This document shows positions 12,401 to 31,102 of a DNA stretch of 37,935 nt, one piece after another (position 1 is the first letter of the stretch; the number at the start of each line of letters is the position of its first letter). Where the stretch lies: IMG/VR virus record IMGVR_UViG_3300036766_000605, positions 1 to 37,935 of that record; one strand, given 5' to 3'. The notes below the pieces were generated by a model. It saw nothing but the letters and a program-made list of their open reading frames with translations. It did not search any database and was not told the DNA's origin. The position numbers and the translations under genes are program-made. Source of the stretch: a virus.

Positions 12401-14416
12401 ACTGAAAGTATGACTAATCCAGCTGTTGGATTGGGGTCAGTTCTAATGGCATATATTAATAATACTTTAGCAAGTATGAAGGTGTTTAGAAATATTATGA
12501 AGGAGTATAGGATTAAATCTTCTTGGAAAGAAGTTGCCAAGGAAATGAAACCTATCTCTGATAAATACCATCTTCCAATTGCTGAGTCTGCTGCTCATTA
12601 TCAACAAATAGATGCGTTGAAGAAGGTTATAGAAAAGGAAAAGAAAAGTCTTGCAAAAGCTGTTGGTGATGAAGCAGATGAGATTAGACAGGTTATTACT
12701 AACTCTGAGGAAAGATTAAAGTTTCATGCTAATGGTATTGAAGCAAGAAAAGAGCTCCTCAAAAGTTACCATACTGAATATGATCTGAAGATCAGAGAAC
12801 TTGCTCAGAAACATTCTTCTGTTAGAATATCCTTGCTAATGGAAGATAGAGGAAAAGGTGAGCTTTATCCATGGCTTAAAGGTTTAACTTCAAGAAATGA
12901 AGAAGTTGCTGCAGCAAGAATGACTGATATGATGGAGGATTATGCAGCGAGGATGCTTGCTGTTGGACAAGATCCTATTACGTCTAAAGGGTTTGTTCAT
13001 TACTCCCCACATCCAGATGTAAATTATAACAAGATTGCAAAACATTTAGAGGGATTAGAATCTGGTGCTGCAGCATCCCCCCGTCTTATTCAGTTTTATG
13101 AACGTTCTATTGGCGGTAGGAATATGATGCCAGATATATTCTATTCAATGGAAAGGTATTTACCTGATGCAAACAAGAGAATTGCTATGGGAGATTTCTG
13201 GGGCAAGGGACGTAGAGGAAGTTGGTACGAACATTCCAGGAGTAATATGGTTCAGTCTAATGAAGGACTCCGGATGTTTTGGGAAAGTGTTAATAGGTCT
13301 TTTGATCCCTTTGAATACGGGTCAATCTCAAGATTTGCAAACAGAGTACAAAGTTTTGAAATCTTTAGGCTTTTAAACTTTTCTCCATCAGTCAGTTTCA
13401 AACACGCCATAAAGATGGAAGCTAACTGGAGTAACTTTGGGTGGTTAGAGTCTATGAAAATGATACCTACAACCACAGCTTTGTGGGCAAGGAAGATGAC
13501 TCCGGAAAGTTTAAAGGGTACTCGTACTCTTGAAGATGCGGCAGTAAAAGCTTATATTGGTCAAGGAGCTACAAACAGAATTATTGCTGATATGTCTACC
13601 TTTGATGTCCCAAGAGGATTTTGGGATAGATACATGGATAAGATTAATACTCATGGTTCTGTTTTAATAGATGCTGTAGAAAACTTTGATCGATCTCATT
13701 CGTTTGTAGCCGCAGCTACAATGGCAACTAAAAAAGGAATGACTCCATCTCAGGCAGCATATGGAATAATGGATACCATCCTTAAGACAAACTTTTTGGC
13801 TGGAGCTTTAAACCCTTCATGGTTAAGAGATCCTAAGGTTAGATTACTGTTTCTATTCCAAGGCACTCCATTCAAAATTGCTGAACAACGAGCTATTCAG
13901 TTATGGAAAGCAGGGAAGTCTATAGGAAGAGCTGGAACAGAAACAAAAGAGTTGCTTGGCATGCTAAGAAAAGATGTTAAGGAAGGAGAATATGCTCTTA
14001 AATATGCAGCGATAAAGGATGCTCTCAATTCGGAGAGGGATATATGGGGAACCTCTATCACCCAACAAGTAATGAGGAAGATGATTATTCTCGGCGGTAT
14101 GACAGCAACAGCTAACTTTGCTTTCAACGCAGATATGTTTGGTCATGTAGTACATGCACCATTTCTGGAGTTTGGAAAGGGAAGGCCATCTATTAGATTA
14201 AATCCTGTAGCTGGTGCAGCATACGAAACTTGGATGAAGAGAGAAGAAGAGGATAGGGGTTTCTGGATGAGTGAATTTCTCAAAGCCTGGATAAGGGAGC
14301 CATTTGTTCAAGCTAATGTTATTAAAGCAATGAGGTTATCAAACGATGATATACCTGAGATTTATAGAGATTCAAGAGTAAGATATTTGCTGGCTGTACC
14401 AGCAACTAAAGAATAA
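9422..14416 (+). CDS. giant internal virion/ejection-type protein (1664 aa)
   Basis: The longest gene in the window. It contains several apolar helical stretches: about residues 258-293 (WGVGLKIAGAALMAMPDFAL and following) and about 861-880 (LVSLIGTIAVGAASVAVSTL), suited to crossing a membrane after ejection. A long charged coiled-coil region lies near residue 1060-1130. The C-terminal third has LLFLFQGTPFKIAEQRAIQL, a pattern seen in 'large polyvalent protein' ends of podoviral giant virion proteins. No lytic transglycosylase or peptidase motif is evident. I found no cysteine in all 1664 residues. By size and position it corresponds to T7 gp16-like ejection proteins; homology is not shown. 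Confidence 0.6.
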   Translation: MPLLDLFEYTKEQDRHQAKLDIERDKWAADPAIGEKLLAHAQALLVPEKKREKLSSASNLAKVEKAIPGSDPRKALGTEALNLFRQALPASSADTDPRELMGTIYNKLTSSRSEETNRYIQKEESALFGGRKDLAKPPGYEEWKKGFVASTQPEGYHTNLLASAAFGAGFSAAGQGIKRLLSKPGLINIAQQDIEQSLLSKVIPELTQATEGRILTKAGKFITKLPFGEFIEKRALRTGATGVGTKLIGGLLGRTPAAGPWGVGLKIAGAALMAMPDFALFDLASFLVKKGAPEWSAQRPLQTGLLATGLSVPAIGALTKGIGKAIAAKPALEAAERKVATTPTASNLLELSKKTEEFGKASEQDIIGYDKILSQFDGWSEGQRVVAKPALFTMPIGAGRALPAPATKIYGEGFETVSSIGYKDLIASFTNEGVASGLSRTEATSNARNTAKRTMGMELTNQISENPLQNVKGRLRNLNQEQIEGVFKAINEEEVSLSRALDDAEWLKANYERRILGPDKVDSATYTILRRAFGTGEEGSLTGVVKENPYITTTLLKKANEQEGAIAVREKAIAYTLGVQERSIIESSPDLITRLNSRMTERFKTLLTPEDIKMEEKAKELGITYNGMQDFGKGVQVATFTDTGTSSKSTFLVKSGETIESKLTESRKINKVSTVGDKIIAESIRRDEFNSALDEIKTKIKTIVGKETITPLSLENRAWTEVQAAKTMEERRAVGLKWYEVFSKTPEQLNDEEFKTLYRAQPVKDRIKLSKAYHQRHDALSIRETADIATKAVPEDLKPLAQDINTEIKRMTTAEYIAQLSKKERILSPEKAANKAEREKVLAMDEKEYDTWRKNNVMLVSLIGTIAVGAASVAVSTLMPSEAEAASPAELAGRTVYKAIKETVGDRTVSKFVAQTIGPEGGSWKDFLPQWLKAGMLSPKISEDGLKVEQYQNPILVNASFEDISRKKRLPFGLDRFLGVFTQGQIYYGGRTGTESMTNPAVGLGSVLMAYINNTLASMKVFRNIMKEYRIKSSWKEVAKEMKPISDKYHLPIAESAAHYQQIDALKKVIEKEKKSLAKAVGDEADEIRQVITNSEERLKFHANGIEARKELLKSYHTEYDLKIRELAQKHSSVRISLLMEDRGKGELYPWLKGLTSRNEEVAAARMTDMMEDYAARMLAVGQDPITSKGFVHYSPHPDVNYNKIAKHLEGLESGAAASPRLIQFYERSIGGRNMMPDIFYSMERYLPDANKRIAMGDFWGKGRRGSWYEHSRSNMVQSNEGLRMFWESVNRSFDPFEYGSISRFANRVQSFEIFRLLNFSPSVSFKHAIKMEANWSNFGWLESMKMIPTTTALWARKMTPESLKGTRTLEDAAVKAYIGQGATNRIIADMSTFDVPRGFWDRYMDKINTHGSVLIDAVENFDRSHSFVAAATMATKKGMTPSQAAYGIMDTILKTNFLAGALNPSWLRDPKVRLLFLFQGTPFKIAEQRAIQLWKAGKSIGRAGTETKELLGMLRKDVKEGEYALKYAAIKDALNSERDIWGTSITQQVMRKMIILGGMTATANFAFNADMFGHVVHAPFLEFGKGRPSIRLNPVAGAAYETWMKREEEDRGFWMSEFLKAWIREPFVQANVIKAMRLSNDDIPEIYRDSRVRYLLAVPATKE

Positions 14417-15974: not shown

Positions 15975-17342
15975 ATGCATAAATTTCTCGATTATATTTC
16001 GGGCAAATTAAGCCTTGGGAAATTGTCCTTCGGGGTCAAGTCCGCCAATACCGTTCTGGCTGGTCCTACGTCTGGGACTGCGGCAGAACCGGATTTCAGG
16101 GGTTTGGTTGGTGCCGATATTCCCTGGTCCGATATCAAACTCACAACCAATCCAGTGGTGGGGAAAATTTGGCAGTGCACTAATGTGGATGGTAGTGGGG
16201 CCTGGGAAACAGCAGCAGCGGGGGGGGATATCCTGACTGATGGGGCCTGGGCTGCTGCCGGGGACCTGATTGTCGGATCAGGAGTCGATACGGCAGTTAT
16301 CCTAACCAAAGGGTCCGAGGGAAGGATATTAAGGGCAGGGGCAACCACTCTTTCCTGGGAATTACCTGCATCACAGGTCTCGGACACAGCCTACACCGCA
16401 TCCTGGGACACAGTAACCACTATTGCTCCCAGTAAAAATGCTGTCTATGATGAGATGGAGTTGAGGGCACCCAAAGCCAATCCGCAATTAACAGGGCCCA
16501 ATATCACCATAGCTGGCCTTTCCAGTTGTATACTCATGGCAACAGACATAACTGGATATATACGTAACCTTGTTCTTGGTGCCGGTCTTGAATTAAATCT
16601 AACTACCTCTACCTTGTCAGGGGTACTCCCGACTAATTATATCTCTGGCCTCACCATGACCCATGCTACCGATGCTGACCATGACATTACCATAGCCCCA
16701 GGGAAGTCACGAGACTCAACGGATGCAGCGGATATGGTTTCCGCTTCTGCCATTACCAAACAGGCCGATGCAGCCTGGGCCGCAGGAACCAATGCCGGAG
16801 GTATGGATACTGGGTCAATCCCAGCCAGTGGTACCCTCCATGTTTGGCAGATTAAAAGTGCCAGTACTGGGGTTGTCGATTACCTGTTTAGTATTTCCGC
16901 CACGGCCCCTACCCTGCCAGCCAATTATAATTACAAGAGGTTGATTGGTAGTTATAGGACTAACTCTTCGAGTAATATTATTCCTGGGGACTGGTGGGGG
17001 ACAAGTAATAGGCGGCGTTTTATCCTTGATACTCCAATATTGGATGTAAATACGGCAAGTCCAGGGACAAGCGCAGTTACGGCGGCATTAAGTGTGCCAG
17101 GAGGGGTAAATGTAATAGCACTTGTCGTATGGAAGGGGACGACTTACGATTGTCGTATATCGTCCTTGTATTCTGCCGATATTGCCCCTGACTTTTACCC
17201 CGAGACAACAAATATGGGAGGGGCATCTAACTCCAAAGATATTGTCAGTGTCCTGACAAATACATCTTCACAGATTAGATATAGAATGCGGGTTGATGAG
17301 CCCGTAAGAATAGCAACTTATGAATGGGAACAATACTTATAA
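15975..17342 (+). CDS. tail fibre/spike protein
   Basis: 455 aa. The N-terminal part carries the motif LAGPTSGTAAEPDFRGLVGADIPW, shown here as separate pieces AGPTSGTAAEPDFR and GLVGADIPW. It is typical of phage fibres ('...GTPAAPSFRxLVxADIP'). The middle has an assembly-like stretch (TIAPSKNAVYDEMELRAPKA) and the C-terminal half is beta-rich (residues 210-455), as in receptor-binding heads. Codon use is much richer in G and C than in the gene just upstream (runs such as GGGGGGG near 16220). A chaperone-like gene follows 12 bases after its stop, as usual for fibres. The receptor cannot be predicted. Confidence 0.65.
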   Translation: MHKFLDYISGKLSLGKLSFGVKSANTVLAGPTSGTAAEPDFRGLVGADIPWSDIKLTTNPVVGKIWQCTNVDGSGAWETAAAGGDILTDGAWAAAGDLIVGSGVDTAVILTKGSEGRILRAGATTLSWELPASQVSDTAYTASWDTVTTIAPSKNAVYDEMELRAPKANPQLTGPNITIAGLSSCILMATDITGYIRNLVLGAGLELNLTTSTLSGVLPTNYISGLTMTHATDADHDITIAPGKSRDSTDAADMVSASAITKQADAAWAAGTNAGGMDTGSIPASGTLHVWQIKSASTGVVDYLFSISATAPTLPANYNYKRLIGSYRTNSSSNIIPGDWWGTSNRRRFILDTPILDVNTASPGTSAVTAALSVPGGVNVIALVVWKGTTYDCRISSLYSADIAPDFYPETTNMGGASNSKDIVSVLTNTSSQIRYRMRVDEPVRIATYEWEQYL

Positions 17343-17354
17343 GGAGGAGATAGT

Positions 17355-17675
17355 GTGCGATACTATGACTTAGACATAACCGGCAGAGTGAAAGGAAGCT
17401 ACGCAGTTCCGCAACCGGGCAAGACCCTCCACCTTCTGGAGGATGCCCCGGATGATAAAAGCAAGAGGGACGCAGTACCTGGTGTGAAATGGGAACCGGA
17501 CCTTGAAATTATCAGTGCCGAAGCTGTGACAACTGCCAGACTTGCAACCAGGGTAAAAGCTATAGTGGACCTTAAGACCCTCATTGCCCTACATGATGCC
17601 GACAAGAGTAAGGTCAAGATAGAGGATATACTCAATCGTCTTGAAAAGATTGAGATATTAATAGAAGTGAGGTAA
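17355..17675 (+). CDS. tail-fibre-associated / chaperone-like protein
   Basis: 106 aa starting at GTG 17355 with a strong site (AAGGAGGAGATA). The N-terminal 50 residues are beta-like (YYDLDITGRVKGSYAV, then a proline-rich turn) and the C-terminus is a long helix (VDLKTLIALHDADKSKVKIE, then LNRLEKIEILIEVR). This two-part plan and the place right after the fibre gene resemble fibre-assembly chaperones, but no specific family motif is evident. It shares the GC-richer codon style of the fibre gene. Confidence 0.45.
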   Translation: MRYYDLDITGRVKGSYAVPQPGKTLHLLEDAPDDKSKRDAVPGVKWEPDLEIISAEAVTTARLATRVKAIVDLKTLIALHDADKSKVKIEDILNRLEKIEILIEVR

Positions 17676-17681
17676 TTTAAA

Positions 17682-18065
17682 ATGAAGAAGATACTTTTAT
17701 CTTTACTGTTGGTACTGATAATTACTTTACCTGCTATTGCTGGTCAGGATATCAAGTTTGTCTGGGACCCATACACTGCTGATACCATCAATGGTTTTAA
17801 TTTGTACATGGCAGGCGCCCCTGGTGTAACGATAACCCCAGTCAACCTGGTGGCCACAATCCCATTGCAAAATACAACTGCCTACACACAGAAAAACGTC
17901 CCGGCTGGTATCCATTACTGGATTTTGACAGCCTTTACCGTTGGACAGGAGAGTGGACCCAGTAATGAGGTAAGCTATATGGTTAAACTCAAACCTCCAA
18001 GTGGGTTGGGCAGCACCGTGGTCCTGTCTTTTGGAAACGTCACGGTTACCGTGGCGGCAAAATAG
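17682..18065 (+). CDS. secreted fibronectin type III-domain protein
   Basis: 127 aa. A classical signal peptide occupies residues 1-20 (MKKILLSLLLVLIITLPAIA, cleavage after AIA). One FN3 domain follows: KFVWDPYTADTINGFNLYMA, then PAGIHYWILTAFTVGQESGP and SNEVSY. That is the usual bacterial FN3 pattern (xxWDP...GYxxY...Y.V.A....GxES..SNEV). The product should be exported to the periplasm or cell surface of an infected cell. The position between fibre and lysis genes could indicate cell-envelope modification or superinfection exclusion; this is inference. Confidence 0.65.
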   Translation: MKKILLSLLLVLIITLPAIAGQDIKFVWDPYTADTINGFNLYMAGAPGVTITPVNLVATIPLQNTTAYTQKNVPAGIHYWILTAFTVGQESGPSNEVSYMVKLKPPSGLGSTVVLSFGNVTVTVAAK

Positions 18066-18075
18066 GAGCAAGTGT

Positions 18076-18507
18076 GTGAGTACATTTCTGACCGAACTCA
18101 ATTTGATCGAGATAGGGGATAAACTGTGGCGGGTCCATGAATCCCTGGTTTATGAAAGTGATCTCCTGACGAGGATTATTACGGATAGTTTTGGGTATAA
18201 GTTTAATGTACCTGGACGGATTACTGTTCCAGAGGGATTCGTGACTGATCTGGCCAGCGTGCCCCGTGTCCCTATTATTTATTATTTTTGGGGAGGGCGG
18301 TGTCACCGGGAGGCGGTGATTCATGACTACTTATACCGAATTGACTCTGACCCCGTGGTCTCCTTCTCTATGGCCAATAAAGTGTTCCTGGAAGCAGCAA
18401 AGTCCAGAGGAAAGAGTCTGTTTATCCGCTACCCTATGTTTTGGGGAGTGTGTCTTGGTGGGATATTTTCCTACCATAAAAAATCAGTAAAGGAAGGTGT
18501 TATATGA
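18076..18507 (+). CDS. DUF1353 family protein
   Basis: 143 aa from GTG 18076, chosen because AGGAG lies 7 bases upstream; upstream codons in this frame shadow the FN3 gene. The DUF1353 signature is clear: VPEGFVTDLASVPR (about residues 55-68) followed by CHREAVIHDYLYRI (about 78-92). DUF1353 proteins are common near phage lysis or tail genes and their role is unknown; the conserved H/D residues suggest metal binding. The C-terminus has an aromatic hydrophobic stretch (FWGVCLGGIFSYH). The stop overlaps the next start (ATGA). Confidence 0.75.
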   Translation: MSTFLTELNLIEIGDKLWRVHESLVYESDLLTRIITDSFGYKFNVPGRITVPEGFVTDLASVPRVPIIYYFWGGRCHREAVIHDYLYRIDSDPVVSFSMANKVFLEAAKSRGKSLFIRYPMFWGVCLGGIFSYHKKSVKEGVI

Positions 18508-18662
18508 ATAAAATTGTATTAGCAGGTTTGGTCTTGGTAGTCATATTCCTGGGGGCTTGTGGAAGTACAACTGTGAATGTCACTAATAGTGGTGGTGGGG
18601 GGACAGGAACTGTTACTCCGAGTCCTGTACCGACTCCTGAACCAACCCCGACTCCGGCATAG
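18504..18662 (+). CDS. small proline-rich lipoprotein (o-spanin-like)
   Basis: 52 aa, ATG 18504 overlapping the previous stop, ribosome site AAGGAAGG. The signal sequence ends in the lipobox LGAC (Cys19), so the mature lipid-anchored peptide is about 34 residues. It is Gly-rich (SGGGG) and then proline/threonine-rich (TPSPVPTPEPTPTPA). Small proline-rich lipoproteins in lysis cassettes are typical outer-membrane spanins (Rz1-like), but no overlapping i-spanin is seen, so this is tentative. Confidence 0.55.
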   Translation: MNKIVLAGLVLVVIFLGACGSTTVNVTNSGGGGTGTVTPSPVPTPEPTPTPA

Positions 18663-18673
18663 AGAGGTGATTT

Positions 18674-18925
18674 ATGAAAAGATATTCAATAATCATATTA
18701 TGCTTAATATTCTTGACAGGGTGCTCCTCTACCCTCACCTATAATCACATAACCAAAGATTGGACAGCCAAGGACTATACCGTGCAGATTGATAAGGATG
18801 GTCTTATCAAAGCTGCTCCCAATCGTTGGTTTACTACGAGTTTCCTGGGACAGTTCTTTACCGGCTTGTTTTCCACTGCACAAAGTATAGTACCTTTGGT
18901 TACACCTGTGGTGACAGGGAAATGA
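18674..18925 (+). CDS. lipoprotein
   Basis: 83 aa, ribosome site GAGAGGTGA. Signal peptide with lipobox LTGC (Cys17). The mature part has a short polar region and an apolar C-terminal stretch (LGQFFTGLFSTAQSIVPLVT). It belongs to the envelope/lysis group and may be a second spanin or a membrane-modifying lipoprotein. Its stop overlaps the next gene's ATG (ATGA). Confidence 0.55.
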   Translation: MKRYSIIILCLIFLTGCSSTLTYNHITKDWTAKDYTVQIDKDGLIKAAPNRWFTTSFLGQFFTGLFSTAQSIVPLVTPVVTGK

Positions 18926-19011
18926 TTCGCTTAGAGTTAATCTTCTGGATCTTGGGAGGGGCAGTGGCAGTGGTGATTTGCTACTATTACCTCCCAAGGT
19001 GCATAGGGTAG
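18922..19011 (+). CDS. very small membrane protein (holin/spanin-type candidate)
   Basis: 29 aa: one transmembrane segment (ELIFWILGGAVAVVICYYYL) followed by a short basic tail (PRCIG). It starts at the ATGA overlap with the lipoprotein gene and is translationally coupled to it. A single-span peptide in a lysis cassette could be a pinholin-like or regulatory peptide; it is short enough that it may instead only couple translation. Confidence 0.4.
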   Translation: MIRLELIFWILGGAVAVVICYYYLPRCIG

Positions 19012-19023
19012 AGAGGGACATAC

Positions 19024-19329
19024 ATGACTGCATTTCTGGAAGGACTTCTTATTGCAGTAGCTGCCACTTTCCTTACTGTTATTGTAGCTTGGGTTGCAAC
19101 AAGAGTAAGTAGAAAGGACTGTATCACAAGTCAAAAACTATGTCAAGAGGGTTTTCAAAATAAGATATGTGCCCAGGGTTTACGGCTTGACGATGGAGAT
19201 GACACCTTCAAGTCAACAAGACATATTCAAAGAGCAGTTCTTCTAACCTTACTTTTTATGTGTAAGAAGTTAGATATTGACTGTGATGAGTTGACCAGAA
19301 CTTTTGTCAAAGAGGATATACTGGAATGA
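19024..19329 (+). CDS. membrane-anchored lysis-cassette protein (holin or i-spanin candidate)
   Basis: 101 aa, site GAGAGGGA. One N-terminal transmembrane helix (residues 5-26: LEGLLIAVAATFLTVIVAWV) followed by a soluble, cysteine-containing domain (four Cys around residues 33-49 and 80-88). This N-in single-span topology fits an i-spanin or a class III holin-like protein. It overlaps the endolysin gene by 4 bases (ATGA), which supports a role in lysis. Confidence 0.5.
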   Translation: MTAFLEGLLIAVAATFLTVIVAWVATRVSRKDCITSQKLCQEGFQNKICAQGLRLDDGDDTFKSTRHIQRAVLLTLLFMCKKLDIDCDELTRTFVKEDILE

Positions 19330-19631
19330 GCGAACTACTCAGAAAAAGAGCACTCTTCTCTCGATTAATACCTAAGTTATTGGATCGGATGTTTGCAGAA
19401 GGATATATAGCTTTAATAGGTAAGGATGGTTTGAAACATATGAAGAACTCCTTGCACTTTGATGGTTTGGCTATGGATATTGATCTCTTCAAGGACGGTT
19501 GGTATCTGGAGAATACCGAAGACCACCGACAGTTCGGGGAATGGTGGGAAGCACTGCACCCAGACTGCCGGTGGGGTGGGAGGTTTGAGGATGGTAATCA
19601 CTACAGTATCACCTACCAGGGGAAGAAGTAG
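19326..19631 (+). CDS. endolysin, M15 (VanY-like) L-alanyl-D-glutamate/D-Ala-D-Ala peptidase type
   Basis: 101 aa. The metallopeptidase M15 zinc signature is present: S-x-H-x-x-G-x-A-x-D (NSLHFDGLAMDIDLF, with H44 and D51 as ligands). RWGGRFEDGNHY follows, where H92 supplies the third ligand. The WGG...DGNHY ending matches short phage endolysins of the T5 Lys type, which cut peptide cross-links in peptidoglycan. There is no cell-wall-binding domain, as expected for a Gram-negative host. It is the last gene of the rightward unit, 12 bases from the end of the converging leftward unit. Confidence 0.8.
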   Translation: MSELLRKRALFSRLIPKLLDRMFAEGYIALIGKDGLKHMKNSLHFDGLAMDIDLFKDGWYLENTEDHRQFGEWWEALHPDCRWGGRFEDGNHYSITYQGKK

Positions 19632-19641
19632 CCCACTCCTT

Positions 19642-19661
19642 ATTCATCTAAATAAATCCTT
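19642..19661. repeat. 20-bp direct repeat, copy 1
   Basis: ATTCATCTAAATAAATCCTT occurs identically here and at 20092-20111. On the minus strand it is the sequence AAGGATTTATTTAGATGAAT: a ribosome site, a stop and a start. Here it lies at the end of the Acb2-like gene and opens an abortive 12-codon frame; at copy 2 it launches a real gene. Confidence 0.7.
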
Positions 19662-19880
19662 CTCGTTAATTGCAATACTTGCATTAGCCCACATTACCGC
19701 CTCCTGCACCTTGGTCAGGGCCATACTCCGTTCCTGGCTATATGGACACTCACGTCCGATAAGGAGAGCCAGTCTACACCCCAAGTCCCGGAGGTTCTCA
19801 TAACGCACTGCCTGATCCCCCTTAGGTGCATGGTATGTGAAGATATGCTCCAACTTATCTTTATCTGCATCAGTTATCAT
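19644..19880 (-). CDS. acb2-like: Acb2/Tad1-hairpin family protein, probable anti-CBASS nucleotide sponge
   Basis: 78 aa from ATG 19880, preceded by GGAGGTGAGAGAAAT; earlier codons in the frame lack a site. The family pattern is well preserved: IFTYHAPKGDQAVRY (residues 13-27), then ECPYSQERSMALTKVQEAVM (44-63) and WANASIAINE. This matches the small helical-hairpin domain known from Acb2, which sequesters cyclic di-/trinucleotides to block CBASS, and shared with Tad1-type anti-Thoeris proteins. The exact ligand cannot be read from sequence. Last gene of the leftward unit. Confidence 0.72.
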   Translation of the reverse strand: MITDADKDKLEHIFTYHAPKGDQAVRYENLRDLGCRLALLIGRECPYSQERSMALTKVQEAVMWANASIAINEKDLFR

Positions 19881-19887
19881 ATTTCTC

Positions 19888-20097
19888 TCACCTCCTTTTA
19901 AGAGTTTCGCACAAAGGTTCACAATCGTCTGGTGGAAGTTCAGGTTTTTCGGCCCAATGAGTAACAGGAAATCCTTTCCAAGAATCTATAGAAGAATAGT
20001 TATAAATAATTGTTCTTCTATTAGAAAGATCTTTTACTACCATAAGATACTCTCCAGGTTTTTCAGGTAGTCCATCACTAACCTTATTCCAATTCAT
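19888..20097 (-). CDS. DUF551-like protein
   Basis: 69 aa. The pattern NWNKVSDGLPEKPGEYLMVV, followed near the end by VTHWAEKPELPP, matches the DUF551 layout (M-x-W-x-x-V-x-(D/E)-x-L-P-x-x-G-x-Y-x-V ... H-W-x-x-L/P-x-x-P). This is a common small phage protein of unknown function. It starts directly at the stop of the upstream gene (TAGATG) with AAAGGA 8 bases before, and lies 7 bases upstream of the Acb2-like gene, so the two are probably co-translated. Confidence 0.65.
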   Translation of the reverse strand: MNWNKVSDGLPEKPGEYLMVVKDLSNRRTIIYNYSSIDSWKGFPVTHWAEKPELPPDDCEPLCETLKRR

Positions 20098-20740: not shown

Positions 20741-20769
20741 CAGAAAGTTCAATTGTTGACGTTTCTTGG
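20741..20769. repeat. dispersed imperfect palindrome, copy B
   Basis: Related to copies at 2752, 28815 and 35350: CAGAAA-gTTCAATtgTTGACg-TTTCTtGG. It spans the stop codon of the DUF3987 gene (20749-20751) and ends 15 bases before the start of the next gene. The dyad is less perfect than in copies C and D. Confidence 0.6.
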
Positions 20770-21981
20770 CTTCATTCCAGTTGCCCAATAATACCAGATT
20801 CCCCCGATTCTACCATCTGGGTTTCTATAATCTCTTTTAACTTTACCTGTTCTTATCGCTGTCTCTATAACATTATCGAACTTATCCGAGTCCATATCTT
20901 TCCATGTAAGAGCCATTATTTGTTTCTCTTCAATAGCTCCACGGACTTGTATAAGAGATAGAACTGTATCAACCTCGGATGCAATTAAACTCTTTCCAAC
21001 AGCCCTAAAAGAATTAGACATTCCTTTTTCAGCTACTTCAATATACTTAATTGCAGTAGTTATGTCCTCCCATTCTATAATCAAGTCCTGTCTTTTAGCA
21101 GCTGCGATATTAATAGATGTTTTTAAGATAGTATCAGGTTTTCTTGAATACCAAGAGTTAAATATAGGTTCCTGACATATCCTCTTAGGAGATAACATTT
21201 CATACTGATTATACCACTCAATCCAATTACTCCTTACCTTCAGCGGTAGTTTATATTCTCCACTAATTTGGCTGATCTCGAACAGGTCTGAGATAAGCTG
21301 TTTCCTAATTGATCTTTCACGTTCTGTAAGTTCAGGGATTGCTTCCTTTTTGTATGGAGCATCTGCCCAGATGAATAAGATTCTGGACGTAAGACCACCA
21401 CCAATGGCTGTAGATGGGAGAGAAGAAGCAAGGGAGTCTGGGGTAGTAGCAGCTTGCAGGTTGAAGAATACATTTTCAAGGATGTTAACTCCGGAGTGCT
21501 TTGTTTTTTTCTCGAAGCTGTCTGGGCAGTCGTAGAGATCTGTGAGAAGTACCAGCATTTTGGTATTCTCTTTTTTCTGTCCCAAAAAAGATTCAAACTC
21601 CTTAGATATAACTGATAGTGAGCAATGAAAGAATGGCCCATCAGTCCCAGGAATAACAGACTCGTTTCTTGAGATTTCGAGATCATCTATTAAAGCCTCC
21701 TTTGTGATGGAGTCAGCAGAGATTGTTATTCCTGGGACCTGTTTTAGTATCTCTAAGGCAAACTTAATAGCCTGAGTCTTACGAGCAATCCCAGGTTGGG
21801 CTACTAATACTATGTATATGTTAGGAAAATAGGTTAATCTACCCAAAGAGAGCCAGGTCTTTCTCCTTAAGACTGAGGCTATAGTAGAAATAGCACACCA
21901 AAGATGAAATTGCTTAGCAGATTCAGTGTTCTCTGTAAATTCAAGGTATGCCTCAATCCAGTTAGACAAGGTTCTCTTCAT
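20749..21981 (-). CDS. DUF3987-type helicase/primase-like ATPase
   Basis: 410 aa. N-terminal region typical of DUF3987: LSNWIEAYLEFTENTESAKQ, then FHLWCAISTIASVLRRKTWL. A variant P-loop AQPGIARKT lies at residues 61-69, with Lys68-Thr69 retained but a glycine replaced. VLLTDLYDCPDSFEKKT (about 141-157) and a long helical ATPase core follow, then a C-terminal winged-helix-like stretch (IQVRGAIEEKQIMALTWKDM). DUF3987 proteins accompany phage replication genes and are thought to act as primase/helicase ATPases. Here it lies just downstream of the polymerase, which supports that role. Confidence 0.65.
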   Translation of the reverse strand: MKRTLSNWIEAYLEFTENTESAKQFHLWCAISTIASVLRRKTWLSLGRLTYFPNIYIVLVAQPGIARKTQAIKFALEILKQVPGITISADSITKEALIDDLEISRNESVIPGTDGPFFHCSLSVISKEFESFLGQKKENTKMLVLLTDLYDCPDSFEKKTKHSGVNILENVFFNLQAATTPDSLASSLPSTAIGGGLTSRILFIWADAPYKKEAIPELTERERSIRKQLISDLFEISQISGEYKLPLKVRSNWIEWYNQYEMLSPKRICQEPIFNSWYSRKPDTILKTSINIAAAKRQDLIIEWEDITTAIKYIEVAEKGMSNSFRAVGKSLIASEVDTVLSLIQVRGAIEEKQIMALTWKDMDSDKFDNVIETAIRTGKVKRDYRNPDGRIGGIWYYWATGMKPRNVNN

Positions 21982-22150
21982 TTTTTCTCTCTATGTTTGC
22001 CCACTCTAATAAGTCTTGCGCAAGTGTATGATCAGTTTCTTCAATTTCTTCAGCATATGTACGCATAGCCATACGAGAAGCGTATGCATACATATCACAT
22101 TTAAACTTAGACTTAGGTTTGAGAACGAAGTACTTCAATTCGAGAGCCAA
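21962..22150 (-). CDS. small hypothetical protein with TTG start
   Basis: 62 aa. The start is TTG 22150, decided by the strong site AAGGAGGTGAAAGA just upstream; no ATG is placed as well. It overlaps the end of the polymerase gene by 38 bases and the start of the DUF3987 gene by 20. Basic N-terminus (FVLKPKSKFK) and acidic helical C-terminus (EEIEETDHTLAQDLLEWANI). The setting between polymerase and DUF3987 protein suggests a replication accessory peptide; no family recognised. Confidence 0.5.
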   Translation of the reverse strand: MALELKYFVLKPKSKFKCDMYAYASRMAMRTYAEEIEETDHTLAQDLLEWANIERKNEENLV

Positions 22151-24545
22151 TATCTTTCACCTCCTTTTTACCCCATTCATAAGGTAAGTCATTTTGTTCT
22201 TCCCATGAGGATCCAGCTTTAAAATCAGTTTCTATGACCATAATATCATGGTTTACTACAATTGGTCGAAGCATATGTTTGAGACAAAGCTTTTGTACGT
22301 CTCCAATTATTTTCTCAGGAATATGAAAGTAAATTGCATCATGTAATTGTAGTAAGATCTCAATATCTTTCCCAGCTTCTTCATATATATCCACAAGATC
22401 CATGTTTAATAAATCTCCAACAGATGATTGAGGTTTAAAAGCATAAGCAGATCGAAGTAAATCCTCCCCCCACCTTCCAAGGAATTTATGACTCCTTCCT
22501 ACAACATTAGTTAACACACGAGATGAACGAAGCTCAGCTTCTGTACTCCTATGCCATATAACAAGGGACGGGTTAGAATTAAAATATGTTTGGAGAAGGA
22601 GTTTAGCTTGCGCCATTTTAACTCCAAGTTTGGTAGATACAACACCTGGACCAGCAAAATATGAAACGGCATGGCGGAGGGTCTTACCAATTTTTCTGTG
22701 GTTTGGAGTTACTTCTTCTTCTATTATATGAAACATTCCTGCAGCAGTAAGATTATGAACATCAAATTTATGTTTGTCTTTATAAGAAGCATTCAAACGA
22801 TTCTTAAAAAGATTCTTTTCTTTCTGGTTATTAGACAGAAATGCTACAACAACTGCCTCAGCTTGTACTTTATCAGCTTGCATAATAACCCACTCTTTTT
22901 TAGCTCGATACATTTTTCTGGCTTCGGGCGGGATATTCTGTAGGTTTCCACTTCCATATGGAAGGATAATAGATTTAGATGAACTCCATCTACCAAAGGA
23001 TTTCTTCCCCTTCTGCTGAGATTTAGAATCATCTTCATCTATAACTGAGCCAGCAATGTTATAGCTGGTATGAACACGATTAGTAGGAGAGAGGTTTATA
23101 TCTAAAAAATCTAAAAGTTTATTATATTTTTTGTATATAAGTAATAAATTAAACAGAGGATTGTTTGGAGAAAGAGTTGCAAGCTTTTTAATAGCTTCCT
23201 CTCCAGCAGTTATTTTACGGGGGTCTGTTATTTTCTTTCTTCTTTTGTATTGAATAGGAAGCTTCATGTCCTCATATAAAAGAATCCTCACCTGCTTTGG
23301 AGAGTTGTAGTTTATCTTTCTTCCTATAAGTTTATTAAGATCTGCTTCAGCTTTGTTAGCCTTTTCTGTAGTTTGGAATATTAATTCTTTTTGGATAACA
23401 GGATCAACCTCAATTCCCTGTAATTGCATCATTAAAGATGGAGCTACTTCGCTCATTTCAAATCTAAATAAGTCCATAAGCTTAGTCTTTTCAAGTTCTT
23501 TTGCCATAAATTCTTTTATGCCAAAAGTGTTAGCAGCATCAGTAGCATTATACATAACTGCGTTTTCCTTAGAGGTGTGCTTCCATGCTGGAACATCTAA
23601 GCAAATCGAAGCAAGATAACCAAGATCCCTTGGTGTCTCAGGCCATAGAATATGAGCTGCAAGAAGGGTATCAAAGGATAGCTTATCACAATGAATATGA
23701 TGGTTAAGTAGAAGAACTCCTGTATCATATGGAGCATTTTGAAAAATGGTAGGACATTCTTGGCATAGACGAGCAAATATGTGCCATAGTTTTGTTTCTT
23801 TAACTTTATTAAAGGTTGGTACAGGTCCAGATATAAGTCTTATAGACATAGCAAAGGTAGGACTGGATGCTACACCTAAGATTGAAATGTGACTTCCAGG
23901 TTGGACTGTTTCTATGTCTATAGAAGCTTCACCTTTAGTTTCTATAATGGATTCACAGAATGAAATAAATTCAGATGGACTGCGTGCTTCGACAAGAATC
24001 CTTTTATCTTGGGGGAGAGATCGAAAGGTAGAATGGTATTTAGCTTTTCTTAAATCCATTACAACCGTCCAATATAACTCCCATTGATAGTTCACAGCTG
24101 AGGGATGATAAGTTGCAAGAACCTTTTGGCCTGGAACCAATGTAGAGTCCATAATAGTGCCTCTGAACTCAGAGATTTTCTTTTGATTGGTTAATGCCCA
24201 TAAAGCTATGTTGCCTAAGGCTACAATGATGTTAGGCTGATGGAATTCTATTTCTTTTTTAAGTTCTACAAGCCACCCCACCAAAATAGGCTTAGGAATA
24301 GTACACTTAGAGTCTTCAAAGTAATACGAAATCCTATTAGCGGGGGGTCTTTCTCGGGCTACATTTCCTATTAAGCATTCTGCTCTTGATATACCTACAC
24401 TTAGGAGTAGGTTAGTAAAGGTTTTTCCTGCTGGGGCATCTACGCAGAAAGGAGTTCCTTTTTTATCTTCCTGTTCATCGGGAGCTTCGCCGAGAAAAAA
24501 TATCTTAGCTCCAATGGAGCCTATAGTTCTGACGTAAATAAGCAC
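22113..24545 (-). CDS. uracil-DNA glycosylase / 3'-5' exonuclease / family A DNA polymerase fusion
   Basis: 810 aa from GTG 24545; the codon before it is TAG, so nothing can be added upstream. Residues 1-170: family 4-like UDG (FLGEAPDEQED at 17-27, RPPANR at 66-71, HPSA at 147-150) lacking the usual N-terminal CxxC iron-sulphur ligands. Residues 180-350: DnaQ-like exonuclease with D210-x-E212, N270...D274 and Y332...D336, so probably proofreading-competent. Residues 370-810: PolA palm and fingers: motif A D558-x-x-Q561-x-E563; motif B R617, K621, Y629, with His625 at the place of E. coli Phe762; motif C H735-D736-A737 where HDE is usual. Replicative polymerase of this phage. Confidence 0.85.
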   Translation of the reverse strand: MLIYVRTIGSIGAKIFFLGEAPDEQEDKKGTPFCVDAPAGKTFTNLLLSVGISRAECLIGNVARERPPANRISYYFEDSKCTIPKPILVGWLVELKKEIEFHQPNIIVALGNIALWALTNQKKISEFRGTIMDSTLVPGQKVLATYHPSAVNYQWELYWTVVMDLRKAKYHSTFRSLPQDKRILVEARSPSEFISFCESIIETKGEASIDIETVQPGSHISILGVASSPTFAMSIRLISGPVPTFNKVKETKLWHIFARLCQECPTIFQNAPYDTGVLLLNHHIHCDKLSFDTLLAAHILWPETPRDLGYLASICLDVPAWKHTSKENAVMYNATDAANTFGIKEFMAKELEKTKLMDLFRFEMSEVAPSLMMQLQGIEVDPVIQKELIFQTTEKANKAEADLNKLIGRKINYNSPKQVRILLYEDMKLPIQYKRRKKITDPRKITAGEEAIKKLATLSPNNPLFNLLLIYKKYNKLLDFLDINLSPTNRVHTSYNIAGSVIDEDDSKSQQKGKKSFGRWSSSKSIILPYGSGNLQNIPPEARKMYRAKKEWVIMQADKVQAEAVVVAFLSNNQKEKNLFKNRLNASYKDKHKFDVHNLTAAGMFHIIEEEVTPNHRKIGKTLRHAVSYFAGPGVVSTKLGVKMAQAKLLLQTYFNSNPSLVIWHRSTEAELRSSRVLTNVVGRSHKFLGRWGEDLLRSAYAFKPQSSVGDLLNMDLVDIYEEAGKDIEILLQLHDAIYFHIPEKIIGDVQKLCLKHMLRPIVVNHDIMVIETDFKAGSSWEEQNDLPYEWGKKEVKDIGSRIEVLRSQT

Positions 24546-25076: not shown

Positions 25077-25268
25077 TTACCTTCTCCTTTGTAAGCAACA
25101 GTTTTTATACTTCATCCCTGACCCGCAAGGACAGACTTCATTCCTTCCAATTTTACCTTCAATAATAATAGTCTCTCCATTTGAAAGAGAAAATGATTGT
25201 TTATTACAGATAGGCTTAGTCGATCTCCGGACTGTAACCATTCGACTCTTCTCTAGCCTTCGCCCCAT
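25077..25268 (-). CDS. SEC-C motif protein
   Basis: 63 aa from ATG 25268 (AAGGA upstream); a shorter start at 25241 is also possible. The C-terminus carries a complete SEC-C motif: [20 protein letters not shown] (CxC...CC zinc site). SEC-C motifs are the zinc-binding tails of SecA and of many proteins that use them as interaction or DNA/RNA-binding modules; a stand-alone version in a phage is small but plausible. The gene overlaps the 3' end of the ParB-methyltransferase gene by about 50 bases, so the two are co-translated. Confidence 0.6.
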
Positions 25269-26634
25269 TAAATCCTTCTTCACTGGAACTACTTGCATTA
25301 ATTCTTGTCTCCATTTCTTTTTCTCTTTTAATAGCTTTAGCCATTCTTTCACAAGCAGAAGCATACGCTTCATCTAAAATTTCTACTCCTATTCCCCTAC
25401 ATCTCATATGAAAAGCCGCTTCAAGTGTTGCAGCTGAACCACAGAATGGATCGTAGACAAGTTTGTTGAAATCTGTACTTCGACCAATGAGCTCCTCAAG
25501 GAGGGAAGTTGGTTTTTCTGTTGGATGAATTTTCTTAGAAGCAAGTACTGGATCACATTGAATCCAGTCAGGCTTGCCTTGTTGGATTAGTCTCGACTCA
25601 GCTTTACGAGCCATAAGAATAAACTCATATGATGCCGAAGGCCAAGCATGCGGAGCGTTGTTCTGACCTGATTCTCGCTTAATCCATACAATAGGCCGGG
25701 GATTAACCAACCAACCAACTGCGATAAACATTTCTCTAACAAGAGGAAAATACTCTGGAGCAACAAAGATGAAAGCATGTGCAGTAGAAGAGCAAAACCT
25801 ATAAGACTCAACAGCAAGATGCGTAAGAAGCTCCAGTGCCATTTCCTTTCCATCTTCAAATTTGAAGCCTGAGGTTGAGAAGTCTCCACCTGTGTTACCT
25901 CCTATTTGGATAGCGTTTTTATCAATATCTATTCCGAACGGGGGATCAGTTAGGAGTAAATCTACTTCCCCGTCTTTCATAGATTTCATATGTTCTCTGG
26001 CATCACCCTTAATAAGTTCTACAGGAATTCCTGATTCCTTTATTACCTCTTCATAAGAAGAAGAATTAGCGAGCCTTGAGATAAGAATTTGTGTAATATA
26101 GGCTACCTTTTTAATTTCCTTTTTTGTTTTGAGCTTTGCCAACTCAGGAAATTGATCCAAGGTTTGAGCAATTTGTTGCTGCTCAATAACATATCCTCTA
26201 GTTTTGCCAAGCATAACTGCTGTCTGCTCAAGAGTCCAACCAGAATCTTTCTTTCCAGAGGTTGCTTCACCATATCTGAGCTGACGAAGTTTGTGGATTT
26301 CTGTCACGGCGCAAGCTTCTTCGGCGGGAGTAAAAGCCTTTCGTTGGATGTTAGCTTCGAGTTCTCGTTCTCTTAATTCAAGGTCTGTTAGATTTTTGAT
26401 ATATACTGCTTTAACTCGTATACCTAACATTATACAAGCAGCTAATCTTCTTCCTCCATCAATAAGCTCGTCGGAGTCAGTTAAAAGAATAGGCTGAAGT
26501 TGACCATAGGTCTTGATAGATTCAGCAAGTCTTTCTAATTCTCCTATGTCTTTTCTATATCTATCAAGACCCTCTCTGACTATTATTGTCTCAGTGCGGG
26601 TGTTAAGTTCTTTTCCTATATCAGATAAGGCCAT
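25216..26634 (-). CDS. ParB-N domain / DNA methyltransferase fusion
   Basis: 472 aa. Residues 15-180 form a ParB/Srx-like domain: [32 protein letters not shown] (the GERRxxA box, here GRRLAA), and a downstream helix-turn-helix region ([20 protein letters not shown]). Residues 205-435 form an amino-methyltransferase: motif IV LTDPPFG (229-234), HPTEKP (370-375) and motif [14 protein letters not shown] (395-407), the beta-class order. DPPF suggests N6-adenine or N4-cytosine methylation. Such fusions occur in phages and may protect DNA or link methylation to a DNA site. No restriction enzyme is nearby. Confidence 0.85.
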
Positions 26635-28154: not shown

Positions 28155-28742
28155 TTAGGCCGCAATCATCTTATCTGCGGAGTTGAAAACCCTTCCTTCG
28201 AAGGTACGAAAGCCGATGGTAACCTTCACTCGGAGACCAAGCCAGTCTTGGTTGGCAATAGCCTCAAGAATCTGCTGACTTGTTCCAGCATTCATAATAC
28301 GCATATCCTTTTTGAAGTCTTGCCACATGTTTACCTTGGCTTGACGCTTGGTCTGTCGACCAGTCTTGGTTAATTCCTTTTCGTCTCCAGGTTTGGGGAG
28401 CCAATTTCTGTAGTTGATGGTAGAACCGTCCAAGGGAGTCTCTCCATCTTGTAGAGTGAACTCTTCCCCGTTACCCTCAAATGCGACATTCCAGTCGATG
28501 GTGACATCCTCTTTGTTGTAGGCTACCTTGGTGACGTTCCCAAAGAACTGACCCTTGGGAATAAGCGGGGTGGGTTTGTATTCAGCTTCGGAATCAAAGT
28601 CTGCCATCCCAGAATCTTCAGCAGAAGCTTCAAATCCGAGATCAGAGTTGTTGTCGGTGATAGGAGTTTCTTCAACGACTGCTGAAGTCTCTTCCTGGAT
28701 AGCGGTTCTTTCATCTACTTCTTGGGTAGGTTTCTTTGCCAT
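28155..28742 (-). CDS. ssDNA-binding-protein-like protein
   Basis: 195 aa, site AAAAGGAG. The first 60 residues are acidic and low-complexity; residues 60-195 look like an OB-type beta domain (KGQFFGNVTKVAYNKEDVTI, DWNVAFEGNGEEF, GLRVKVTIGFRTFEGRVFNS). The pattern resembles the DUF669-like phage proteins that stand in for SSB. It lies two genes after a Sak4-like ATPase, and Sak4 recombinases usually travel with an SSB. It uses more G/C-ending codons than its neighbours, consistent with high expression. The SSB role is inference. Confidence 0.55.
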   Translation of the reverse strand: MAKKPTQEVDERTAIQEETSAVVEETPITDNNSDLGFEASAEDSGMADFDSEAEYKPTPLIPKGQFFGNVTKVAYNKEDVTIDWNVAFEGNGEEFTLQDGETPLDGSTINYRNWLPKPGDEKELTKTGRQTKRQAKVNMWQDFKKDMRIMNAGTSQQILEAIANQDWLGLRVKVTIGFRTFEGRVFNSADKMIAA

Positions 28743-29071: not shown

Positions 29072-29866
29072 CTATTTAACCTCCTTTCCTTTTATAGTAT
29101 TAACAACAGCAACTTTGGCTGGCTTCTTTTTCTTTCCGGTAGCATAGACCATGATTTCCTGAAAATCGTTAGGTAAAAGATCAGGCAGAATGCGTTGCTT
29201 CCCCGACAACCTCGATCTCCCGTTATTAAAGCCTATTGGTATAGTTTGAATGTACCACTTTGTTTCTCCACTTTCTCTCTTTGTAATATGGTAATAGACC
29301 TCATCAAACATACCAGGAATGAGGGTAGATAACTGTCCAACAAGAAGCGGCTCGATTTTCACTATAGCACCGGTCTCAGTATCTTGGATAATGTTTGAAT
29401 GCATTATAAGGAGAACGTTGGCAGATAGATCATATATCTGTTTTAGTTTTCCCTCCATAAGATTTCGCTGCATTTGGTAGTGGACATTCCAAAGGGGACC
29501 GCTTGTCTGACTTCTCTTTGGATCAAGAGCAAGCGCTTGTTCCATAGCAATCATACCCATACCAGTAAGATCATCACAGATAACAGTAGTGTATTGGCCC
29601 TTTTCCCCTCTATTTTCTTCAAACATCTTCCCAGACTTTACCTTAATCAAATCCCTTTCAAATTTAAGCCAGCCTTTATTATCCTGGGTATATTGTTCAT
29701 AGTCAAAGTCAAGACTACGATATGTTAAGATTTGAGTTCCGAAGTCGAATACAAATCCTGGCATAGGGAATGTAGTTCCGAAAACAGATTTTCCAGAACC
29801 AGGAATACCCACAGAACATACTTTAAGCCACTCAGTTGTTACTGCTACATCTTTAGCGTTCGGCAT
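29072..29866 (-). CDS. Sak4-like RecA-core ATPase (phage recombinase)
   Basis: 264 aa, site GAGGTGA. Walker A GIPGSGKS at residues 20-27; a Walker B-like YTTVICDDLTG around 93-103; then QTSGPLWNVHYQMQRNLMEG and an ATPase strand ending in LLIMHSN (about 155), the usual layout of AAA_24/Sak4 proteins. Sak4 proteins promote single-strand annealing in phage recombination together with an SSB. The nuclease at 30110 and the SSB-like gene at 28155 complete a plausible recombination set. Confidence 0.75.
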   Translation of the reverse strand: MPNAKDVAVTTEWLKVCSVGIPGSGKSVFGTTFPMPGFVFDFGTQILTYRSLDFDYEQYTQDNKGWLKFERDLIKVKSGKMFEENRGEKGQYTTVICDDLTGMGMIAMEQALALDPKRSQTSGPLWNVHYQMQRNLMEGKLKQIYDLSANVLLIMHSNIIQDTETGAIVKIEPLLVGQLSTLIPGMFDEVYYHITKRESGETKWYIQTIPIGFNNGRSRLSGKQRILPDLLPNDFQEIMVYATGKKKKPAKVAVVNTIKGKEVK

Positions 29867-30113
29867 CTGCGATCACCTCTCTTCCAAGGTGAGCAAGCTT
29901 TTTAGCATACCATTCAGCTTTTTTAATATCACTCAAATGACCTTTGTAGTTCTCTCTGGCAATATACTTAATAATACTTCCTTTGAGAAAGCCTTTAAAC
30001 TCTATAGGAGAGAGGGTATATTCTATAATACTTATCACCTCTATCTTTCCCTTTGTGTAGTGTTTAGGATGATTGATCTCATCTTCTTTATCTTCTTTTA
30101 TCTCTTCACTCAT
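29853..30113 (-). CDS. DUF3310 protein
   Basis: 86 aa, site GGGAGGTCAACGGA. The DUF3310 signature NHPKHYTKGKIEVISIIEYT followed by FKGFLKGSIIKYIARENYKG and KKAEWYAKKL is complete. DUF3310 proteins are common in phage nucleotide and replication clusters; their activity is not established. The gene overlaps the nuclease stop (ATGA) and the Sak4-like start by 14 bases. Confidence 0.8.
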   Translation of the reverse strand: MSEEIKEDKEDEINHPKHYTKGKIEVISIIEYTLSPIEFKGFLKGSIIKYIARENYKGHLSDIKKAEWYAKKLAHLGREVIADAER

Positions 30114-31102
30114 TCCGTTGACCTCCCTTCTTCTTCTCTGTTACGAACATCCCACTTTTCTTCTATAAATCCTTCTGGAACTTCAAGAATCTTATATTCG
30201 AGAGTATTTTTGTTAAACTTATAAGGGATCTTCTTGTTTATCTCACATAACTGGGCATATGAACACCTTCGGTTATAAGCGAAACAGGAAGAGTGTCGCA
30301 TTGGAAAGTTATCCATAATAGTAGATAGATATATGTCTCTTGCTGTAGATATGAAGGATTTTCTCCATCCAACTAAATCTCCATCAGTAAATATATGAGG
30401 GACTCTTTGAAAATCTGTAGTTAACTTACCGTACACTCCATCCTTGTTTTTACGTGAGGAAAAATGACAGAATGAGATTAATACCCCCTCTACATTAATA
30501 CCTCTAACACGTTGAGCATAAGAGTAGCCCATGATTTGGGCTGAGCGATGGAGTCTCTGAGACTGAATAGATAAAGCCTGGCCAGTAGTTTTTGCTTCCC
30601 ATATCCAGGCTACCTCATTCATCTCTACCTGGAGGTCAATCTGACCAGTGAAGACGATCTTTGGGAGGGCTAACTGAAATGGAAATAAGGTTTGCTCCTC
30701 TACAGTAAGTTCAAAAGGAATCTCAAATACCTCTTCTGGAAATATAATCTTTAGTGAACCATCATCATCTCCGAAGTAGTCAAGATACTGGAGGGCACAG
30801 GTATTGAGGTTATCAAGGGTTCTGTAATCATCAATGAACTCAGCTTTCTCTGTTTGAAGCTCGAATTCCTTCTTTGCTTCAAGCAACCCTTTCATGAGGG
30901 CGATGTTTTTCTTTCCCCATCCTTCCTGTCTTATAACCTCATAGAATCCATGAAGGAAAGCGTGCCAAGCACCTCCCCACCGTAAGGCTGTGGAGCCTCT
31001 GATGCCCCGGATGCCTAATACATTTCGTAGAAAGTCCTTTTGGTGACATTGTTCATATAGATCTTTTCTTGAATTATCGAGGGCGAGAATATAATCTTTC
31101 AT
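30110..31102 (-). CDS. PD-(D/E)XK nuclease, Cas4/RecB-like with iron-sulphur cysteines
   Basis: 330 aa. Catalytic core GQIDLQVE ... WIWEAKTTG gives D156, E169 and K171, with an upstream His47 (WHAFLHG). Four cysteines are placed as in Cas4/AddB-type Fe-S nucleases: Cys19 near the N-terminus and Cys273, Cys280 and Cys286 (CFAYNRRCSYAQLC) near the C-terminus. The enzyme is expected to act as an exonuclease on DNA ends, making single strands for the neighbouring Sak4-like annealing protein. Its start overlaps the upstream stop (TAATG). Confidence 0.8.
   Translation of the reverse strand: MKDYILALDNSRKDLYEQCHQKDFLRNVLGIRGIRGSTALRWGGAWHAFLHGFYEVIRQEGWGKKNIALMKGLLEAKKEFELQTEKAEFIDDYRTLDNLNTCALQYLDYFGDDDGSLKIIFPEEVFEIPFELTVEEQTLFPFQLALPKIVFTGQIDLQVEMNEVAWIWEAKTTGQALSIQSQRLHRSAQIMGYSYAQRVRGINVEGVLISFCHFSSRKNKDGVYGKLTTDFQRVPHIFTDGDLVGWRKSFISTARDIYLSTIMDNFPMRHSSCFAYNRRCSYAQLCEINKKIPYKFNKNTLEYKILEVPEGFIEEKWDVRNREEEGRSTE

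Follow-up and report, generated by a model that had tools for sequence, protein, structure and literature searches.

A phage DNA polymerase with a uracil-DNA glycosylase-like domain belongs to a large lineage carrying histidine at position 762

The polymerase gene and its surroundings

The window, i.e., the whole stretch of DNA analyzed here, is a virus record of 37,935 bases (IMGVR_UViG_3300036766_000605). On its minus strand, positions 22113 to 24545 hold a GTG-initiated open reading frame (ORF) encoding an 810-amino-acid fusion of uracil-DNA glycosylase (UDG), exonuclease, and family A DNA polymerase. An in-frame TAG lies immediately 5' of the GTG, and the ORFs of relatives begin at about the same point, which backs the GTG start independently of the TAG. 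Pfam profiles place UDG at residues 9 to 156 (3.2e-19) and DNA_pol_A at residues 389 to 783 (3.1e-43). A single PHROG profile, PHROG 17, covers residues 11 to 797, so that the three-part chain already falls within a known phage polymerase family. An AlphaFold2 model of the chain built with 40 family members (mean pLDDT 90.9, pTM 0.89) was matched by Foldseek to the Bst and Klenow Pol I large fragments (Bst Pol I, E 2.5e-28). The view of a sequence-only reading that one 810-amino-acid chain combines UDG, exonuclease, and PolA parts is thus borne out by the ORF, the Pfam matches, the motifs, and the model.

The neighboring genes, all on the minus strand, are conserved. Downstream of the polymerase lies a DUF3987 gene (PHROG DNA primase/helicase; 20749 to 21981), and upstream lie a ParB-N/N6_N4 methylase fusion (25216 to 26634), a 195-amino-acid ORF with no family match (28155 to 28742), a gene for a Sak4-like annealing protein/AAA_24 (29072 to 29866), and a PD-(D/E)XK exonuclease gene (30110 to 31102). 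This six-gene module, in the order PD-(D/E)XK nuclease, Sak4-like protein, 195-amino-acid ORF, ParB-methylase, UDG-exonuclease-polymerase, and DUF3987, is conserved in near relatives. Among the 25 relative loci checked, DUF3987 was present in all, distant members with His at position 762 (E. coli Pol I numbering) included, and the ParB-methylase was present in 23 (absent from L002 and L028). No thymidylate synthase or dUTPase was recognized among the ORFs scanned in this possibly incomplete record. Likewise, no gene for a terminase, portal, or capsid protein was recognized among these ORFs; hence, the record may be a fragment, and the phage may have other polymerases or uracil-metabolism genes. 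The host search matched two metagenome-assembled contigs in total.

Two further features of the window were observed. A 1,664-amino-acid protein (9422 to 14416) had no PHROG, Pfam, or NCBIfam match and is kept in the near relatives L108, L111, L114, L116, and L121. The G+C content is 0.45 to 0.48 at positions 16000 to 20000 and roughly 0.33 to 0.41 elsewhere.

The UDG domain

The N-terminal domain (24021 to 24545, minus strand; residues 1 to 175) is family 4-like and was identified with Pfam, phmmer, and Foldseek. Matches to 1vk2 and 1ui0 were obtained with phmmer. Residues 1 to 180 modeled alone reached a pLDDT of 95.7, and the top Foldseek matches of this model were the family 4 UDG crystal structures 1l9g, 1vk2 (TM 0.80, E 4.8e-15), 4zbx, and 1ui0; the modeled N terminus therefore matches solved family 4 UDG structures. 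The domain scored 94.5 bits against the curated NCBIfam family 4 cutoff of 125.3 bits and thus missed it. It is not UdgX, as it reads GEAPD and not GEQPG, has no KRRIH loop, and scored 61 bits against a cutoff of 190.

In Thermus UDGa, the uracil pocket comprises E41, G42, E47, F54, N80, and H155, while N89 positions the water (PMC5387724). In the phmmer alignment with 1ui0, the counterparts in the window are E20 (E41), A21 (G42), E26 (E47), F33 (F54), N61 (N80), N70 (N89), and H147 (H155), i.e., seven of seven, with Ala accepted at the G42 position. Motif 1, LGEAPDEQED, occupies residues 18 to 27 (24465 to 24494, minus strand; alignment to 1ui0), the stretch from N61 to N70, which spans E65, lies at 24336 to 24365 (minus strand), and H147 of the HPSA motif was placed by alignment at 24105 to 24107 (minus strand). 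The earlier assignment to a family 4-like UDG with GEAPDEQED and HPSA motifs therefore agrees with both the alignment and the fold match. At the motif 1 position that is usually Gly, the window has D23 (Gly in 43 of 69 clade rows, Asp in 2), a substitution that may make the uracil pocket weaker.

None of the four iron-sulfur cysteines is present in the window UDG: there is no CxxC upstream, and position 65, the site of an iron-sulfur Cys in family 4, is Glu. The absence of the N-terminal CxxC ligands had been noticed from the sequence, and it extends to all four cysteines. The possibility that the missing iron-sulfur half lies further upstream was ruled out by the TAG before the GTG and by the similar starts of the relatives.

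The exonuclease and polymerase domains

The 3'-5' exonuclease domain (23511 to 24008, minus strand; residues about 180 to 345) was placed by alignment and by the model, and its Pfam profile match was weak and below the cutoff. All five catalytic residues are present, namely D210, E212, D274, Y332, and D336, corresponding to D355, E357, D424, Y497, and D501 of Pol I, in agreement with the earlier description of an intact proofreading exonuclease. Among the 69 clade rows, D210, E212, and D336 are found wherever the alignment has no gap.

The family A polymerase domain (22176 to 23510, minus strand; residues about 346 to 790) was identified with Pfam and Foldseek, and its membership in family A is reflected in the presence of D558, R617, K621, Y629, and D736 along with the Pfam match given above. 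Motif B, RKIGKTLRHAVSYF, spans residues 617 to 630 (22656 to 22697, minus strand). Its landmarks align as R617 with Arg754, K621 with Lys758, H625 with Phe762, and Y629 with Tyr766 (E. coli numbering), and F630 occupies the site where Gly767 is usual. A misaligned 762 position was ruled out, as phmmer (with Bst Pol I) and two MAFFT alignments of up to 86 polymerases concur; none of them gives the window protein Phe, Tyr, or Leu at this position. His at the Phe762 position and Phe for the usual Gly, both proposed from the sequence, are thus confirmed. Every alignment puts the window outside all three published viral PolA classes (Phe762, Tyr762, and Leu762).

Motif C reads HDA at residues 735 to 737 in the alignments (22335 to 22343, minus strand), as had been reported, with no Glu after HD. 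The accompanying description of HDE as invariant-looking did not hold, as HDA and HDS are frequent among phage family A polymerases. In the 70 rows of the His762 clade, motif C is HDS in 43, HDA in 20, HDE in 4, and something else in 3. Outside the clade, N4, Muddy, JacoRen57, AikoCarson, and Shrew have HDA, and PaBG and ctfzr933 have HDS. HDE therefore does not define family A in phages, and HDA is an ordinary form of motif C, found inside and outside the His762 clade. A natural Ser in motif C (HDS) is found in the polymerase of Thermus phage Tt72, which is active (PMC9324360). The S616A mutant of this enzyme keeps 76% of activity, while D384A and D615A keep 4% (PMC9324360). The window protein retains D558 and D736, so that loss of the motif C Glu should be tolerated. 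A polymerase dead through HDA was ruled out, both because HDA and HDS are common and because the Tt72 HDS enzyme and its Ser-to-Ala mutant are active.

The His762 clade

Scanning viral contigs with a single sequence yielded no relative, while an alignment query recovered relatives. The patterns used to scan IMG/VR were short and were taken from the UDG region and exonuclease motif II; as motif B was not used, His was not selected directly. His762 was found in 70 of 86 aligned polymerases, a sample seeded from the window protein: the window, 63 IMG/VR loci, and six named phage records (Caulobacter phage Kuura, Microcystis phage Mel-JY34, Desulfofustis phage LS06-2018-MD01, ctMlz233, Vibrio phage VS-ABTNL-3, and Pseudomonas phage Neko). 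Near relatives found later that span motif B likewise carry His762, and D558, K621, and H625 are invariant across 69 clade rows.

The 762 and motif C columns were taken out of the alignment before trees were built, and the trees held no Leu762 reference. The His762 rows formed one side of a single branch in a quick tree of 86 rows (SH-aLRT 97) and in a more careful tree of 76 rows (bootstrap/SH-aLRT 100/97), where the clade was present in 100% of bootstrap trees. Outside it were the Phe762 polymerases Salmonella Pol I, Bxb1, Muddy, vir526, and ctfzr933 (in the quick tree also N4 and PaBG) and the Tyr762 polymerases T7, SIO1, L064, L068, and L078, the last three of which adjoin the His762 clade in both trees. 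His762 is thus a trait of a large, old phage lineage and not a quirk of the window protein. The domain assignments of the sequence-only reading stand in this light, but the oddities that it treated as features of a single enzyme are lineage traits.

In the His762 rows, position 65 is never Cys and no CxxC occurs upstream, whereas ctfzr933, vir526, L064, L068, and L078, all outside the clade, retain the UDG iron-sulfur cysteines. Loss of the cluster and His762 therefore appear to share a stem.

A published survey of position 762 retained only Phe, Leu, or Tyr (PMC9069017), a filter to which the whole His762 clade is invisible, and related papers describe only these three residues (PMC6302109, PMC13228545). 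No description of a His762 polymerase class was found in the open-licence PubMed Central literature searched.

Conservation of the UDG pocket and fold

All seven pocket residues are kept in 34 of 69 clade rows, and the leaving-group His is absent in 17 of the 69 relatives. In contrast, the fold residues P104, N105, I107, G111, R128, and G129 are kept in 64 to 68 of 69 rows. The UDG fold is therefore conserved more strictly than the uracil pocket within the clade. Close relatives repeat this pattern in miniature: most have GEAPG and HP, but L105 lacks the His.

Outside the clade, Mycobacterium and Gordonia phage polymerases with Phe762 (L008:1869-4256, L010:1800-4187, and L015:1372-3717) begin with a degenerate UDG-like domain that lacks catalytic motifs; they are annotated just as DNA polymerase I.

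Split-gene relatives

The polymerase gene of the window is unsplit. About twenty relatives encode the UDG and exonuclease motifs I and II in one gene and motif III and the polymerase in another; they include Kuura (L002:3971-7375) as well as L025, L039, L066, L070, L073, L075, L077, L080, L082, L085, L088, L091 to L093, and L096. With the split falling between exonuclease motifs II and III, the proofreading site would need two chains. First pieces often end in a similar tail, e.g., TIKRDD, second pieces often have MKIINTS-like starts, and the spacers range from an overlap or TAA-ATG up to about 1 kb. L074 is split separately at the same loop, and its sister L071 is unsplit. A second type of split, between NLQNI and palm motif A, was found in L052:6977-9595, L053:6974-9383, L059:4695-7421, L061:6959-10025, and L006:2956-6090; Vibrio phage VS-ABTNL-3 belongs to this set. 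The AlphaFold2 model of the window protein has lower confidence in both break regions.

ORFs in the spacers of split loci include an HTH gene, DUF1937/DUF4406 genes, and a weak HNH match. The gap of L052 contains an HTH-like ORF. An ORF in the gap of L061 opens with MPMPNI, as does the downstream piece of L052, the sister of L061, and the L061 piece itself starts with MPLPNI. Introns were rejected as the cause of the splits, as none of 13 loci gave an Rfam match over the threshold and several pieces possess start codons of their own as well as conserved ends.

Possible function of the fusion protein

Domains, residues, fold, clade, and conserved gene neighbors were computed, and we infer every activity from them. 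The explanation that we favor, and hold to be somewhat more likely than not, is an active proofreading replicase in which the UDG fold is a DNA-holding or structural module and uracil is probably bound in this particular phage. The gene product would serve a tailed phage as its replicative DNA polymerase, joined in one chain to its proofreading exonuclease, and its N-terminal domain would descend from a family 4 UDG. Polymerization would follow the usual two-aspartate chemistry (D558 and D736), with His625 taking over the role of Phe762 in holding the incoming sugar and the third motif C carboxylate being lost at little cost. Across the clade, the UDG fold would probably hold DNA or serve a structural role. 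In the window phage, the completeness of the pocket makes uracil binding probable, and the domain may also excise uracil in the DNA being copied.

The closest competitor of this explanation is a purely architectural UDG in all members, which would clamp DNA or buttress the exonuclease, the window pocket being a leftover. In its favor, the clade keeps fold residues longer than pocket residues, and degenerate UDG-like N termini also occur in the Phe762 phages Muddy and JacoRen57 and in PaBG. However, all seven pocket residues persist in half of a very diverse clade, above what is expected of a leftover, and we rate this account as a serious one with a little less than an even chance of being correct. 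The same half of the clade, and in the window the leaving-group His and the water-positioning Asn among the seven residues, would instead fit active repair, in which the UDG cuts uracil out of either template or product as replication proceeds, in the manner of a free family 4 UDG. That the polymerase and exonuclease then handle the abasic site would be the next step, and both parts seem rather unlikely to us. Template uracil excised ahead of the fork would leave an abasic block or a break, the iron-sulfur cluster is gone clade-wide and the motif 1 Gly is Asp, and the near relative L105 lacks the His, so that excision is not essential even close by.

Archaeal family B polymerases bind template uracil and stall. 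A comparable read-ahead sensor, in which template uracil is bound uncut and stalls the polymerase, was the idea of the sequence-only reading. A complete pocket, together with the change of the motif 1 Gly and the loss of the cluster, would suit binding without efficient catalysis, and the covalent tether to the polymerase is in keeping with it. Nevertheless, a sensor would presuppose that the pocket lies in front of the active site, and the domain is retained by clade members whose pockets are destroyed, which makes such a sensor quite improbable. As a description of the window protein, a uracil reader fits the seven pocket residues and is possible; as a general function, it is not supported, with only about half of the clade keeping all seven, and it would not extend to the clade. 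It is also doubtful that the change at 762, the iron-sulfur loss, and the DUF3987 and ParB-methylase neighbors arose together, with the UDG pocket controlling the copying of uracil or other noncanonical bases. This joint reading would make His762 polymerases a fourth functional class of phage PolA, a status that we likewise regard as doubtful.

Viral DNA polymerases are classified by their residue at position 762, from which phage lifestyle is also inferred. His762 offers a natural fourth state for tests of dideoxynucleotide (ddNTP) selection, speed, and fidelity. Moreover, as the UDG pockets of the clade run from intact to destroyed, the relatives supply comparisons for a glycosylase fold on a replicase. 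The main value of the locus lies in the His762 clade together with this naturally occurring range from intact to broken UDG pockets.

Comparison with known systems

Divergent phage PolA groups have been recognized by clade before, and divPolA1 and divPolA2 (PMC11348598) resemble the window protein in this respect. They occur alongside a regular polymerase and either lack the exonuclease or have it in inactivated form (PMC11348598), whereas the window exonuclease is intact, which rules out a divPolA1 or divPolA2 identity. The Thermus phage vB_Tt72 polymerase shares family A membership, proofreading, and the absence of Glu after HD with the window protein but has Phe at 762, and its exonuclease begins at residue 1, hence there is no UDG domain (PMC9324360). 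The family 4 UDGs of Thermus (UDGa, 1ui0) and Thermotoga (TM0511, 1vk2) are like the window domain in fold (TM 0.77 to 0.80) and in the seven pocket residues; the window differs in having no iron-sulfur Cys, in Asp for the motif 1 Gly, and in its fusion to a polymerase.

Among whole proteins, the PHROG 17 DNA polymerases are the family that matches the window protein, and its nearest annotated relatives are those of Microcystis phage Mel-JY34 and Desulfofustis phage LS06-2018-MD01. Both share its domain order, His762, an HDS/HDA-type motif C, and neighbor genes, although at an identity of 26 to 29% (tblastn), and the UDG pocket of the Desulfofustis phage is degraded, unlike that of the window. 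The same three-domain order, already implied by the span of PHROG 17, has been published for the DNA polymerase I of Pseudomonas phage PaBG (Lupandier group; PMC7412058), in which an N-terminal UDG, a 3'-5' exonuclease, and a family A polymerase follow each other in one chain. The PaBG protein differs from that of the window in Phe762, an HDS motif C, a length of 1,032 amino acids, and more degenerate UDG motifs, and it falls outside the His762 clade. The UDG-exonuclease-polymerase fusion itself is therefore of an already published kind.
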